The notes under the pieces: generated by a model
What the model saw: only the letters and a program-made list of their open reading frames with translations
Database searches by the model: none
What the model was told of the DNA's origin: nothing
Program-made: the position numbers and the translations under genes
Shown: positions 56,369-61,734 of the stretch, in pieces
Layout: each line of letters begins with the position of its first letter
How positions within the stretch are numbered: the stretch's first letter is position 1
Assembly: GCF_004342485.1 (NCBI RefSeq)
Contig: NZ_SMBU01000019.1
Coordinates: forward strand, 1-64,000
Source: Roseateles saccharophilus
Lineage (GTDB): Bacteria; Pseudomonadota; Gammaproteobacteria; Burkholderiales; Burkholderiaceae_C
Direction of reading: 5' to 3'
DNA length: 64,000 nucleotides

Positions 56369-56989
56369 ATGCTTGAAACCCTCAGCTTGGCCAGCCACGG
56401 CCCCGTCATTCCCGTCATCGTCATCCAGCGCCTGGAAGACGCCGTGCCGCTGGCCGAGGCCCTGGTGGCCGGCGGCGTCAAGGTGCTCGAGGTGACGCTG
56501 CGCACGCCGGTTGCGCTTCAGGCCATGGAAGCCATGGCCAAGGTGCCGGGCGCCATCGTCGGCGCCGGCACGCTGCGCAGCCCGCAGGACGTGGCCAACG
56601 CGAAGAACGCCGGCTGCCGGTTTGGCGTCAGCCCCGGCTTCACCGAGGCCATCGGCTCAGCTTGCCAACAGCACGGCCTGCCGCTGCTGCCCGGCGTGTC
56701 CACCGCCTCCGAGGTCATGCAGGCCAACGCGGCCGGCTACGGCTTCCTGAAGCTCTTCCCGGCCGTCGCGGTCGGTGGCGTGAACCTGTTGAAGGCCCTG
56801 GCCGGCCCCTTTCCGGACGTGGCCTTCTGCCCCACCGGCGGCATCTCGTTGCAGACGGCGCCCGACTTCCTGAATCTGCCCAACGTCAAGGTCTGCGGTG
56901 GCTCCTGGCTCACGCCTCAGGATGCCGTCGACGCCAAGGACTGGGCGCGCATCACCCGGCTCGCCGCCGAGGCTTCAGCCCTGCGGTAG
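56369..56989 (+). CDS. eda: KDPG/KHG aldolase
   Basis: 206-residue class I aldolase that splits 2-keto-3-deoxy-6-phosphogluconate into pyruvate and glyceraldehyde 3-phosphate. The Schiff-base Lys128 is in FLKLFPA, and Glu41 and Arg45 in EVTLRT are the acid/base and phosphate residues; the phosphate loop is PTGGIS. Forms the Entner-Doudoroff pair with edd. Its 3' end overlaps the convergent thioesterase gene by 15 bp. Confidence 0.96.
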   Translation: MLETLSLASHGPVIPVIVIQRLEDAVPLAEALVAGGVKVLEVTLRTPVALQAMEAMAKVPGAIVGAGTLRSPQDVANAKNAGCRFGVSPGFTEAIGSACQQHGLPLLPGVSTASEVMQANAAGYGFLKLFPAVAVGGVNLLKALAGPFPDVAFCPTGGISLQTAPDFLNLPNVKVCGGSWLTPQDAVDAKDWARITRLAAEASALR

Positions 56990-57587: not shown

Positions 57588-58004
57588 TCAGGCAGCCAGG
57601 CGCTGCGCGGCACGGGCGACGCGGCGTGGCGCCTCCAGGCCGCGCAGCTTGTCCAGCACCGGCCCCTGCCAAGGCAGCAGATAGACCAGAGTGGCCAGCA
57701 TCGCGCGGCGGCGCGAAGACAGCAGAGGCCGCTGATGCTCGTCCAGCAGCAGCACGTTGCAGCGCACGTTGAGCGGGTCGGCCTGCACGACGGTGCCCTC
57801 GTCGAGCTCGACCCAATCCCACTCCAGCCAGGCGCAGGCATCGGCGTAGCAGCGCTCCCAGCGCGTCGTGCCGCCGGCACGACGCTCGCCGCTGCGGGCC
57901 AGATGCACACGGGTCTGGGCGTGCCGGACATCCTGAGCGGCGCCCGACAGTGCCGCAACCGGCCAGCAGATGCTGCCCTCGGGGAGATGGATCAGGGTCG
58001 ACAT
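57588..58004 (-). CDS. Unknown 138-residue protein divergent from luxR
   Basis: I do not recognise this protein. It begins MSTLIHLPEGSICWPVAALS, has a Trp-rich middle (WERCYADACAWLEWDWVELD), a segment NVLLLDEHQRPLLSS, a short hydrophobic helix (AMLATLVYLLPW) and a basic C-terminus. No signal peptide. ATG 58004 has AAAGGCG 7 nt upstream; an extension to 58055 is less likely. A lux-box-like site (58071-58090) is centred about 77 bp before this start, the correct position for activation by the neighbouring LuxR protein. It therefore may be a primary quorum-type target. Confidence 0.7.
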   Translation of the reverse strand: MSTLIHLPEGSICWPVAALSGAAQDVRHAQTRVHLARSGERRAGGTTRWERCYADACAWLEWDWVELDEGTVVQADPLNVRCNVLLLDEHQRPLLSSRRRAMLATLVYLLPWQGPVLDKLRGLEAPRRVARAAQRLAA

Positions 58005-58070
58005 GCAAGCGCCTTTCGGGGTGTAAATCGTGATCGGCGCGCAGTCTCCGGTCATGCCGGACCCGGAACA

Positions 58071-58090
58071 AGCTGGCAGACTTGACAGGT
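58071..58090. promoter_or_regulatory. Lux-box-like operator 1
   Basis: AGCTGGCAGACTTGACAGGT, a 20-bp dyad whose half-sites AGCTGGCA and (reverse) ACCTGTCA agree at 6 of 8 positions, with CTG.CA/TG.CAG arms as in LasR/RhlR/LuxR boxes. It abuts the luxR ATG (58091) and lies about 77 bp upstream of the divergent gene start at 58004. It is identical to operator 2 at 16 of 20 positions. Predicted to activate the minus-strand gene and possibly to autoregulate luxR. Confidence 0.65.
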
Positions 58091-58819
58091 ATGGCCCAGC
58101 CCGAAATGAACTACCAGCAGCTGATCGACGTCGGCCTGAGCGAGGACTTCACCAGCTTCGAACGGCGGCTGGTGAAGACGGCCGAGGCACTGGGCTTTCC
58201 CATCATTTCGGGCGTGCTGATGCGTGGCCTGCTGCAGGACGCCGACGTAAGGATCACGTCGCTGGGCAATACGCCGGAGGGCTATCTGGCCGCGGCCAAG
58301 GATCTCGGCGACGCGCGTCGGGACCCGGTCATGATGAAGCTGATGACGCAGTCGGTGCCGGTGGCCTACGACCAGCAGACCTACGTCGCCGCAGGTGCGG
58401 GTGAGCTCTGGGAGATGCAGGCGCCCTACGGCTACAAGACCGGCATTGCGGTCAAGCTGCACCTGCCGGGCGACAAGGTTTTCCTGCTCGGTGTGGACCG
58501 AGACGAGGCGCTGCCCGAGTCTGGCCCGCGACTGATGCAGATGGTGGCCGGTCTGCAATTGCTGGCCGCACATGCGCTGACCGCCGCGGACCGGCTGCTG
58601 AGCCCCAGGATCAGCAAGGACGACCTGCCCAGGCTGACCAAGCGCGAACTGGATGTGCTGAGCTGGACCTCCCAGGGCAAGACGGCCTGGGAGGTCAGCG
58701 TCATCCTCGGCATGAGCGAGAAGACGGTGAACTTCCATCTCGGCAACGCGATGCGCAAGCTGGACGTGAAGTCCAAGCACCAGGCGGTGCTGAAGTGCGT
58801 GGCCGCGGGCTTGCTTTGA
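58091..58819 (+). CDS. LuxR-type receptor/regulator (solo)
   Basis: 242 residues: autoinducer-binding domain (about 18-165) and GerE/LuxR helix-turn-helix (about 180-242; LTKRELDVLSWTSQGKTAWE, then SEKTVNFHLGNAMRKL). Of the six residues nearly invariant in acyl-homoserine-lactone receptors, Asp78-Pro79 and the Gly near 118 are present. The two Trp positions are Tyr (Tyr65, Tyr93) and the pocket Tyr position is Ala69. No luxI is in the window, so it is a solo with an altered pocket. ATG 58091 is preferred to a TTG at 58082 that lies inside the operator; ATG 58106 is also possible. Flanked by two lux-box-like sites. Confidence 0.88.
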   Translation: MAQPEMNYQQLIDVGLSEDFTSFERRLVKTAEALGFPIISGVLMRGLLQDADVRITSLGNTPEGYLAAAKDLGDARRDPVMMKLMTQSVPVAYDQQTYVAAGAGELWEMQAPYGYKTGIAVKLHLPGDKVFLLGVDRDEALPESGPRLMQMVAGLQLLAAHALTAADRLLSPRISKDDLPRLTKRELDVLSWTSQGKTAWEVSVILGMSEKTVNFHLGNAMRKLDVKSKHQAVLKCVAAGLL

Positions 58820-58836
58820 GGCGCTCCGCGCAGACA

Positions 58837-58856
58837 ACCTGGAAGACTTGCTAGGT
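58837..58856. promoter_or_regulatory. Lux-box-like operator 2
   Basis: ACCTGGAAGACTTGCTAGGT, 18 bp after the luxR stop. Ends are the classical ACCT...AGGT; arms agree at 6 of 8 dyad positions; the centre GACT is shared with operator 1 (16 of 20 bases identical overall). Its centre is about 80 bp before the ATG of the 18-codon ORF at 58926, nearly the same spacing as operator 1 to its gene. A third, inverted partial copy (AGCAAGTTGTCTTCCA) follows at 58892-58907. Confidence 0.62.
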
Positions 58857-58907
58857 TACCGGGAAGCTGAAAACAGGGACAGTCCGGACCCAGCAAGTTG
58901 TCTTCCA
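58840..58907 (+). other. Long imperfect inverted repeat before the small ORF
   Basis: TGGAAGAC, TTGCT, GGT and CCGG on the left pair with CCGG, ACC, AGCAA and GTCTTCCA on the right: about 20 bp with small bulges around a 21-nt loop. The left arm is part of lux-box operator 2. As DNA it looks like two opposed regulator sites. As RNA it would be a strong hairpin if transcription reads through from luxR. An alternative pairing CCAGC (58890-58894) with GCTGG (58913-58917) would hide part of the ribosome site of the small ORF. Confidence 0.55.
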
Positions 58908-58925
58908 CTGTCGCTGGAGTACCCC

Positions 58926-58982
58926 ATGAAGATCATCGACCTCGTCTACGAAATCCTCGGTCTGCCCCGTCTCGGCGGCTGA
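58926..58982 (+). CDS. Candidate 18-residue peptide gene under LuxR control
   Basis: ATG 58926 opens an 18-codon frame ending in TGA: MKIIDLVYEILGLPRLGG. GGAG (58916-58919) lies 6 nt upstream, an ideal Shine-Dalgarno distance. The peptide has an amphipathic hydrophobic first half, then Leu-Pro-Arg and a terminal Gly-Gly. No signal peptide and no known family recognised. It stands 106 bp after luxR, behind a lux-box-like operator and a long inverted repeat. It could be a signalling peptide, a leader peptide for the gene downstream, or a chance ORF. Too short for standard gene callers. Confidence 0.45.
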   Translation: MKIIDLVYEILGLPRLGG

Positions 58983-59018
58983 ACCTCCCGCCCCACACGG
59001 CGAGAACCCGACGCGGCC

Positions 59019-59084
59019 CGCAACGGATGCCCCAGGTGACCGGCTCCAGACAACGAGCTCCTCACCCTTGGCGCATCCGTTGCG
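59019..59084. other. 12-bp perfect inverted repeat with 42-nt loop
   Basis: CGCAACGGATGC (59019-59030) and GCATCCGTTGCG (59073-59084) are exact reverse complements; GGCC flanks extend the arms with one bulge. It lies between the 18-codon ORF and the alpha-CTD-like gene, with no T-run, so it is more like an operator or attenuator than a terminator. GC content is similar to surroundings but 12 perfect base pairs is well above background. Confidence 0.6.
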
Positions 59085-59139
59085 GCCCCCGCGTAGAACA
59101 GGTTCCCGGCCGCCTCCCAAGCAGCTCAGTGCAAATATC

Positions 59140-59382
59140 GTGGCCATCTCCGATGCGACCTATGCCCGGCTGCTGAGCCTCGCCGATCAGGCACCGCTCG
59201 AATGCCTGCCGCTGACCTCGCGTACGTTGATCTACGCGAAGACCCTGGGCTATCACCAGATCGGCCAGATCCGCAGCACGCCGTCCCATCGCCTGCTCGC
59301 CGACTTGGGCGAGGAGCGCACCGAGGAGCTCAAGCGGGCGCTCTACGATTTCGGCATGCGCCAGCCCGCTCCGCACGACTGA
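59140..59382 (+). CDS. Stand-alone RNA polymerase alpha-CTD-like protein
   Basis: 80-residue protein (start uncertain: GTG 59140 used here; frame open to a TTG at 59068). The body from about residue 20, CLPLTSRTLIYAKTLGYHQI followed by GQIRSTPSHRLLADLGEERT and EELKRALYDFGM, follows the helix pattern of the alpha C-terminal domain of RNA polymerase ([20 protein letters not shown] in E. coli). It lacks the alpha N-terminal domain. Such a domain binds UP-element DNA and is a contact for LuxR-type activators, so a regulatory role beside luxR is conceivable. No known gene name. Confidence 0.6.
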   Translation: MAISDATYARLLSLADQAPLECLPLTSRTLIYAKTLGYHQIGQIRSTPSHRLLADLGEERTEELKRALYDFGMRQPAPHD

Positions 59383-61086: not shown

Positions 61087-61734
61087 ATGCAAGACCGTGA
61101 AATCCCTCTCGAATCCTGGCCGCGCCGTGCGGCACTGCAGCATTTCCGGGCGATGGCCCAGCCGGCCTTCAGCGTCACCGCCGACGTCGACGTGACCGGC
61201 CTGCGCGAGCGCGCCGCGCCGCATGGCGCGACGCCCTGGCTGGCCTATCACCACGCGGCGCTGGAGGCCGCCAACGGCATCGATGCGATGCGCCAGACGA
61301 TGATCGACGGCGGGCGCGGCGTGCGCGAGTTCGGCGTCATCCATGCCAGCACCACGGTGCTGCGCGATGACGGCAGCTTCGGCTTCCTGACGCTGCCGCG
61401 CGAGGCCTCGCTGGCCGCCTTCGCGGAACACGGCAAGGCCGGCCTCGCGCGCGTGCGCCGCGCCAGCGGCTCGCTGTTCGCCGGCGACGAGCCCGGCGAC
61501 GTGAGCGAGCAGACGCTGGTGCACATGACGGCGCTGCCCTGGTTCGCCTTCACCGCGTTCACGCATGCGCGTGGCGCCGGCGACGACCGGCCCAAGGTCG
61601 CCTTCGGTCGTTTCAAGGCCGTGGCCGGCCGGCTGCTGATGCCGGTGGCCGTCGATGTGCACCATGCGCTGTGCGACGGCGTGCACGTCGGGCGGTTCTT
61701 CGAGCAGCTGCAGGCCGGGCTCGACGCAATCTAG
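61087..61734 (+). CDS. Chloramphenicol acetyltransferase-family O-acetyltransferase (CatA-like)
   Basis: 215 residues, the usual CAT length. The catalytic motif HHALCDGVHVG gives His193 and Asp197 as in HHxxxDG; other CAT landmarks are WPRRAALQHFRAM near the start and LPWFAFTAFTHA near 150. It may acetylate chloramphenicol or another hydroxyl substrate. Many environmental CatA-like proteins do not give resistance, so the phenotype should not be assumed. No mobile element flanks it, so it appears chromosomal and native. Confidence 0.87.
   Translation: MQDREIPLESWPRRAALQHFRAMAQPAFSVTADVDVTGLRERAAPHGATPWLAYHHAALEAANGIDAMRQTMIDGGRGVREFGVIHASTTVLRDDGSFGFLTLPREASLAAFAEHGKAGLARVRRASGSLFAGDEPGDVSEQTLVHMTALPWFAFTAFTHARGAGDDRPKVAFGRFKAVAGRLLMPVAVDVHHALCDGVHVGRFFEQLQAGLDAI

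Follow-up and report, generated by a model that had tools for sequence, protein, structure and literature searches.

LuxR solos are widespread, many of them without a known ligand, and peptide pheromones are regarded as the Gram-positive way of communication. In the RRNPP systems (Rgg/SHP, PlcR/PapR and ComRS), the receptor gene lies beside a short peptide gene that the receptor activates, and the precursors are short and hydrophobic. In PMC10710839, RsaM proteins are described as repressors of N-acyl homoserine lactone (AHL) quorum sensing whose mechanism is unknown and which are reported to bind neither DNA nor AHLs. Divergent rsaM–luxR solo pairs without luxI form type 6 (Venturi et al. 2023) and are given there for Pelomonas, Thauera, Kinneretia, Albitalea and Xenophilus (PMC10710839). 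PipR, a LuxR homologue, responds to Ser-His-Ser and requires a peptide importer (PMC4981722). In this study, a locus at positions 57588–59382 of a 64,000-nucleotide stretch of Roseateles saccharophilus DNA (contig NZ_SMBU01000019.1, positions 1 to 64,000; the whole stretch is called the window) was compared with its relatives. It holds a luxR gene, two lux boxes, a divergent RsaM-like gene and an open reading frame (ORF) of 18 codons. Judging from the sequences, we believe, with a probability of about 0.65, that the locus is a LuxR-type autoregulatory circuit in which a ribosomal mini-peptide would replace the LuxI product as the signal and RsaM would tune the response.

The basis of this reading is comparison: the gene order, the conservation of the peptide, the boxes, RsaM and the exporter, the lack of a strong luxI match, the altered AHL contacts, and the covariation of peptide and receptor. 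A preliminary description of the locus had observed a LuxR solo bracketed by two matching 20-mers, and this observation was confirmed as a whole, both 20-mers being in place and conserved at orthologous loci. Its interpretation was upheld for the LuxR without luxI, the two conserved lux boxes, the real mini-peptide gene and the local circuit. It was revised in two respects, because the protein called unknown is RsaM-like and the RNA polymerase alpha C-terminal-domain (alpha-CTD)-like gene is not a core part.

Lux boxes, the mini-peptide and its family

The receptor gene lies on the plus strand at 58091–58819, with its start at 58091 or 58106. Lux box 1, AGCTGGCAGACTTGACAGGT, occupies 58071–58090 between the rsaM-like gene and luxR and abuts a luxR ATG. 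Lux box 2, ACCTGGAAGACTTGCTAGGT, occupies 58837–58856. The boxes are identical at 16 of 20 positions, exactly as claimed before, and both are imperfect dyads with 6 of 10 symmetric pairs (counted by eye). The spacings of about 77 and 80 bp given in the preliminary description were also reproduced: the centre of box 1 is 76.5 bp from the start of the 138-residue minus-strand gene (58004), and that of box 2 is 79.5 bp before the ATG of the 18-codon ORF (58926). With up to three mismatches, the joint box pattern occurred at two places only in the window (chance mean 0.11), and no shuffle had two. In the whole genome (5.77 Mb), 24 matches were found, against 18 for the reversed-pattern control. 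The two window boxes were the only ones within two mismatches, and the remaining 22 matches all had three. A wide regulon for the exact box pattern was therefore rejected.

A lack of the boxes upstream of orthologous genes had been named beforehand as one of two refuting outcomes; each box was conserved in 17 of the 19 close-relative loci (L004–L022). Box 1 had 0–1 mismatches and was nearly letter-identical (AGCTGGCAGACTTGNCAGGT); the exceptions were L020 (46% identical) and L021, which begins inside luxR. Box 2 had 0–3 mismatches, and its exceptions were L020 and L019, whose luxR breaks off near residue 173. The sequence flanking the boxes drifts among these loci while the boxes stay. In most of the 17 loci, box 1 immediately precedes a luxR ATG. 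Since box 1 ends against the ATG at 58091 in the window, it may overlap the translation-initiation region of luxR. Most orthologues have both ATGs, some only the one abutting box 1, and some only that 15 bp downstream. Given these differing starts, box 1 may overlap the ribosome-binding region, which would allow direct autorepression. In Pelomonas aquatica KCTC 42961, the window-type luxR is split over two contigs (L019 and L021; G238:C20 and C27). The pieces cover residues ~4–173 and 161–241, with 6 kb of other sequence after the first, either by insertion or by an assembly break; the paralogous circuit of this genome (L084/L167) looks whole.

The mini-peptide gene, MKIIDLVYEILGLPRLGG, lies on the plus strand at 58926–58982. 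All 18 sequences compared (the window and 17 orthologues) had an ATG start, exactly 18 codons and a stop. Single-base codon differences were biased to silent ones, with a nonsynonymous to synonymous ratio (N/S) of 0.91 against 2.52 expected; the other two frames gave 1.78 against 2.75 and 10.67 against 2.43. Judged from these codon differences, the 18-codon ORF is a real gene under purifying selection and of fixed length. The consensus of the 18-mer is roughly MxxIDLxxExLG[LVI]P[RK]xGG, and the core in the window is GLPRLGG. The 18-residue peptide has no double-glycine (GG) leader. Leaderless forms in the window's genus have about 16–24 residues and no adjacent exporter.

Records named Roseateles and Pelomonas are among the close relatives of the window LuxR. 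A search of 20 genomes of the genus found a LuxR of this clade in every one, with two or more matches in 16. The 14 loci whose LuxR is 72–87% identical to that of the window all carry the 18-mer, and most paralogous loci carry short peptide forms ending in GLPYTGG, GFPITGN and similar (starts uncertain). The source genome itself has a paralogous LuxR (G000:C2, 48% identical), which is likewise accompanied by a divergent RsaM-like gene and a separate mini-ORF, MWKLIAEVFGLPYTGG.

A LuxR of the clade was found in 80 of 299 genomes of the GTDB family, representing 38 of 141 sampled genera (E ≤ 1e-30). In total, 105 copies were analysed; the listed places without a fetched locus were G043:C635, G100:C67, G281:C300, G077:C30, G075:C1:2793590, G139:C5 and G183:C1:672588. 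A small peptide ORF lies behind 79 of the 105 copies, when the xPxxxW, GLPxxGG and longer-core types are taken together. One member, L134, was added by hand after the pattern had missed it (78 to 79), and the start of L078 was also set by hand. The ORF typically lies 50–200 bp past the luxR stop and has a constant C-terminus, P-x-x-x-W, as in LPRVGGW, APKSTW, GPNGGW, TPNKTW, LPKATW and SPKGTW. Some precursors (L100, L126, L127, L131, L114 and L125) contain two to five copies of the core separated by spacers, AGPNGGW and DPSPKGTW being examples. GPNGGW occurs five times in L100, 199 nt after luxR, and SPKGTW four times in L127, which recalls multi-copy pheromone precursors.

The strictest pattern, an ATG ORF ending in P-x(2,3)-W, was found downstream of 57 of 103 copies, upstream of 1, on the opposite strand of none, and in 17 of 2060 shuffles. 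This set of 103 excluded L080 (a duplicate of L141), L057 and L062 (broken gene or contig end) and copies with less than 500 nt downstream. When the same strict script was applied to the clade and to other LuxR-type genes of these genomes, a peptide was found in 71/104 and 0/40, and a box in 64/104 and 0/40, respectively. The control set comprised 40 of 42 non-clade PF03472 places from 40 of the 80 genomes, G197:C1:93296 and G296:C1:496083 being left out. It includes the third LuxR-type gene of the source genome (G000:C39:13344-13775), which lies outside the clade and has no peptide or box behind it. A chance origin of the boxes and the layout was rejected by the shuffles, the reversed-pattern control and the other-LuxR control.

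Before the peptide ORFs, a family box, ACCTGTAAGAGTTGACAGTT, was matched at 14 or more of 20 positions in 60 of 79 regions; 6 of 3950 shuffles reached this level. Compared by eye, box 2 of the window shares 15 of 20 positions with this consensus. A profile built on the family boxes placed 65 of the 79 regions above the 99th percentile of shuffles, and in 56 of those 65 the box centre lies 73–93 bp before the peptide ATG. Eleven of the 14 regions under the threshold belong to the leaderless type. A plain palindrome search was weak on these boxes (at least 8 of 10 symmetric pairs in 15 of 79 regions, compared with 4.7% of shuffles). Boxes upstream of luxR were counted in 58 and 62 of 79 cases with a threshold from shorter regions, so these counts were not used as evidence.

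A GG leader, typically of the form PVELDxxLLxxVSGG, is present in 58 of the 79 precursors, and 21 are leaderless, the window type among them. The exporter counts are lower bounds drawn from 94 LuxR places and 135 C39 places. A C39-peptidase ATP-binding cassette (ABC) transporter follows LuxR on the same strand in at least 53 of the 80 genomes, in at least 50 of them at 1.56–2.15 kb. The gene between peptide and exporter encodes about 410–430 residues in most loci readable in full and belongs to the HlyD family by Pfam in both loci tested. Among the C39 matches listed, leader and adjacent exporter were strongly associated over the 79 precursors (both, 49; leader only, 9; exporter only, 0; neither, 21; Fisher 2e-12), and thus all 49 precursors beside an exporter have a GG leader. 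None of the 21 leaderless precursors had an adjacent exporter among these matches, although L092, which lies 1 kb from a contig end, is uninformative. In the window's genome, a single C39 match is among those listed, on another contig (C22), and hence none adjacent to the locus. The exporter of L181 is a C39-ABC transporter resembling the NHLP bacteriocin exporters, under that family's cut-off; the ORF taken as the exporter of L183 had no match and is probably in the wrong frame. The mini-peptide thus appears as a short leaderless version of family-wide LuxR-linked peptides, most of which have a leader and, in 49 of 58 leadered cases among the matches listed, an adjacent exporter. This suggests that it is likely the signal and not just a target.

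Several further searches concerned the reach of the family. Of 399 genomes in an order-wide search for the LuxR, three had a match at E 1e-30; two of these belong to the same family, and the LuxR of the third (33% identity) had no recognised peptide. A protein search with one leader-type precursor returned 4 homologues, no Pfam family was found for the three leader-type precursors scanned, and one relative's LuxR had no plasmid match at E 1e-30. Clusters of two to five clade luxR genes were observed at L141 (G066:C143), L136 (G096:C20), L123 (G197:C1), L110 (G212:C1) and L179 with L175 (G305). In the first four, one copy only has a recognised peptide ORF; none was recognised for L179 and L175. 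The extra LuxRs look like receptors without their own peptide and are possible eavesdroppers or modulators.

The receptor, the RsaM-like protein and neighbouring genes

The window LuxR matched Autoind_bind (PF03472, E 6.1e-10) and GerE (PF00196, E 7.7e-20), both above the cut-off. Its nearest solved structures by sequence are LasR, SdiA and QscR, and the receptor model aligns to the CepR2 and LasR ligand domains, with the fold of AHL-receptor ligand domains. The description of this gene as a LuxR without luxI proved correct in a search of the source genome (108 contigs, 100% complete by the tool's figure), which identifies it as a LuxR solo. The sole PF00765 match of this genome, L030 (G000:C11), is an exosortase-associated acyltransferase (exosort_acyl, TIGR03694; 244 bits against a cut-off of 112), and a true luxI elsewhere in the genome was rejected. 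Such PEP-CTERM/exosortase-associated acyltransferases with a LuxI-like Pfam match are a trap for luxI counts. Across the 80 genomes, PF00765 was above the cut-off in 12, of which five had weak matches only (E 2e-8 to 3e-5), including that of the window's genome typed as exosortase. A strong LuxI (E < 1e-19) was found in 7 of the 80 genomes and in none of the other 73, and its same-contig distance to a clade LuxR was never below ~195 kb.

The conserved AHL contacts, in TraR numbering, are W57, Y61, D70, P71 and W85. At the LasR-aligned positions, the window LuxR has Y for W60, A for Y64 and Y for W88, and it keeps D73 and P74. With two of the five contacts, it departs from the pattern of AHL-responsive receptors. 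Across 96 aligned receptors, Y or F stands at the W60 position in 89 and W in 4, so that the Trp is replaced in 92.

Peptide core and receptor were then compared by covariation. When the DNA-binding domain was controlled for, core distance was associated with the ligand domain (partial Mantel 0.196, p = 0.0005), while the reverse test gave 0.069 (p = 0.14). Pocket columns were more core-associated than other ligand-domain columns (Mann–Whitney U test, p = 3e-4, N = 66), and the association persisted for W-ending cores (N = 56, p = 0.003–0.013) and under stricter thinning (N = 41, p = 0.002–0.013). In 48 disjoint nearest pairs chosen on non-pocket columns, the partial rank correlation of core and pocket was 0.53 (p = 0.0002), compared with 0.19 for the rest of the ligand domain and −0.11 for the DNA-binding domain. 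These alignments suggest a covariation signal between core and pocket that is present but moderate.

The 138-residue gene on the minus strand (57588–58004), divergent from luxR, had been described as encoding an unknown protein. It is present beside box 1, but by sequence and predicted fold its product is a relative of RsaM. The protein matched Pfam DUF4902 with E 0.0024, under the gathering cut-off, and PDB entry 4o2h (BCAM1869, the RsaM homologue BcRsaM) with a phmmer E of 9.5e-4; a profile of 19 orthologues matched 4o2h with E 5.8e-7. In a Foldseek search with the predicted fold (predicted local distance difference test 84.5), 4o2h was the best match (E 2e-6) and the sole entry at E ≤ 0.001, with a template modelling score of 0.62–0.65 for chain B. 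On sequence similarity and the model together, the gene is RsaM-like, and it lies beside luxR, as rsaM genes do beside luxR and/or luxI. A divergent RsaM-like gene was found in 76 of the 79 peptide-linked copies (window included), in 12 of the 26 others, and in 4 of the 40 control LuxR genes. The family profile used for these counts started from four sequences that belong to this set and was then rebuilt from its own matches.

Downstream of the mini-peptide, the preliminary description had placed an alpha-CTD-like small protein (59140–59382, plus strand, start uncertain) as a possible member of the circuit. The label is that of the preliminary description and is taken here as an assumption; the protein had no Pfam or NCBIfam match. 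The gene is conserved at this locus in the genus: by tblastn it follows the peptide in all loci from L004 to L022 except L019 and L020 (17 of 19), about 30–160 bp away when measured to the start of the conserved part. At the paralogous loci, tblastn reaching ~1.5 kb downstream found none. It was therefore rejected as a core part and is better seen as a syntenic neighbour or local target outside the family-wide cassette. Its frame is open upstream, and an in-frame segment (~GDxLQxTSSA) is common to several orthologues, so the true start could be well upstream of 59140. In that upstream stretch an inverted repeat was seen by eye, its arms near 59015–59030 and 59073–59088. Further along the window, 61087–61734 encodes a chloramphenicol-acetyltransferase-fold protein (PF00302) that was also found close by in 17 of the 19 relatives L004–L022, and 56369–56989 presumably encodes a 2-keto-3-deoxy-6-phosphogluconate aldolase. 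No peptidase was found among the scanned flanking genes (a thioesterase, a methyl-accepting chemotaxis protein, the chloramphenicol-acetyltransferase-like gene and the unmatched alpha-CTD-like gene), and thus the adjacent proline iminopeptidase of the OryR/PipR type was absent from this set.

Proposed circuit and other explanations

In the proposed circuit, LuxR would bind the box before the peptide gene and raise peptide expression, a positive feedback as with luxI. The ligand pocket of LuxR would be occupied by the C-terminal core of the peptide, which is GLPRLGG in the window and xPxxxW in the majority of relatives, or by a product processed from it. The RsaM-like protein encoded divergently from luxR, whose gene is probably under the control of the second of the two boxes, the one next to it, would restrain the loop, as RsaM does in AHL systems; the box between luxR and rsaM would probably couple this brake to the same signal. 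In most relatives, the adjacent C39-peptidase ABC transporter with its HlyD adaptor would cut and export the GG-leader precursor, and the secreted peptide would re-enter the cells. In the window's genus, the leaderless form may move by another route or act inside the cell.

The receptor may instead sense an AHL or another compound from neighbours or hosts, with the peptide as a mere output (a secreted effector, a bacteriocin-like product or a public good). LuxR solos are reported in PMC10134790 to sense endogenous and exogenous AHLs as well as non-AHL signals. The residues of AHL receptors are largely kept in the clade (D73 in 94/96, P74 and G113 in 96/96, W88 in 78/96), and the only exporter typed, that of L181, is the one resembling NHLP bacteriocin exporters. 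Against such an output role, W60 is lost in 92 of 96 receptors, the peptide cores covary with the pocket columns, and the cores have just 6–7 residues with up to five repeats per precursor. Most bacteriocins are unlike such short repeated cores. We regard this explanation as doubtful. It is still less likely that the leaderless mini-peptide acts inside its producer, for example by co-activating, chaperoning or inhibiting LuxR or the RsaM-like protein, and is no pheromone in this genus. The 21 leaderless loci fit this idea, as do two of the four genomes of the genus (G030 and G156), which have no C39 match among those listed. Against it, leaders and exporters occur in relatives whose receptor, box and core motif are of the same kind, which makes secretion the commoner state. 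It is very improbable that the 18-codon ORF is a leader controlling translation of the alpha-CTD-like gene, whose amino acids would matter little. The close position of that gene in 17 of 19 loci speaks for it, but the N/S bias towards silent changes does not, the paralogous loci have the peptide without the alpha-CTD-like gene, and in the loci examined from the rest of the family the gene behind the peptide is HlyD.

Besides the kept AHL-receptor residues, several observations weigh against a peptide-sensing circuit. When pairs were picked on the whole protein, the partial r of core and pocket was 0.43, a value reached by 4.5% of random 26-column sets and by 0.6% of variability-matched non-pocket sets; in two subsets, one leaving out the window's genus and the other limited to W-ending cores, the first share was 6.3–9.8% and the second 2.8–4.2%. 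The covariation statistics remove shared ancestry only in part, and the 26-residue pocket list is provisional, with only part of it matched in a paper. A hexapeptide is larger than an AHL and may exceed what the pocket can hold. In the window's genus, the core is without the final Trp, without a leader and without an adjacent exporter. More widely, the family box is not matched at 14/20 in 19 of 79 peptide leader regions, 9 precursors with a leader lack an adjacent exporter among the matches listed, and 26 of 105 copies have no recognised peptide. Three or four of these 26 have a likely peptide by eye (L087, L129, L137 and perhaps L061), counted outside the 79, and about half of the remaining copies are members of tandem luxR arrays.

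Comparison with described systems

The preliminary description knew of no system with this layout. This was too broad for the half formed by rsaM and luxR, because divergent rsaM–luxR solo pairs are already reported in PMC10710839; it stood for the peptide partner within the open-access literature covered. In the open-access literature covered, in part, no LuxR paired with an encoded peptide was found, subscription papers being mostly outside its scope, and the term 'peptide' has no occurrence in the main text of PMC10710839. The LuxR–peptide pairing in dozens of related bacteria, often with an exporter, suggests an undescribed small-peptide communication. We lean towards a new class of Gram-negative quorum sensing, in which LuxR-type receptors would have a dedicated ribosomal peptide pheromone with an xPxxxW or GLPxxGG core. 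Its cassette would be RsaM/LuxR/peptide/HlyD/C39 exporter, diversified into many specificities, with tandem-repeat precursors and, in most genomes of the Roseateles group, two paralogous channels; in that genus the peptide part would have shrunk to a leaderless gene of 18 codons. If this is true, an orphan-receptor clade present in 80 of 299 sampled family genomes gains a predicted ligand that can be read from adjacent DNA and synthesised, so that what LuxR solos sense becomes directly testable with an ordered peptide. It would also mean that the LuxR fold can change its ligand class yet keep the feedback layout and the RsaM partner, and it would provide many candidate peptide–receptor pairs.

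The type 6 RsaM–LuxR solos (PMC10710839) share with this locus the divergent rsaM–luxR pair without luxI; here, however, that pair comes together with a conserved peptide gene and boxes, and often with an exporter. The class C solos (PluR with photopyrones and PauR with dialkylresorcinols) are alike in having a LuxR-type receptor with a self-made non-AHL signal, and the signal gene of PluR is adjacent (PMC10134790); here, the peptide is a candidate signal. The class C signals are described there as products that come from synthases outside LuxR control, with no autoinduction (PMC10134790). In the present locus, the candidate signal would be ribosomal, and its gene has a lux box. The PipR/OryR family is a precedent for a LuxR homologue that answers a peptide (PMC4981722). 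PipR lies beside peptidases and an importer and takes an external signal, whereas the peptide of the present locus has its gene next to that of the receptor, and most relatives have an exporter as well. The double-glycine systems with peptidase-containing ABC transporters resemble the relatives, which have a leader ending in GG, an adjacent C39-ABC transporter and HlyD; the window's own peptide differs in having neither leader nor adjacent exporter. The RRNPP systems share the placing of a receptor gene beside a short peptide gene, but the receptor here belongs to another family, that of LuxR with its autoinducer and GerE domains, and comes from a Gram-negative bacterium.

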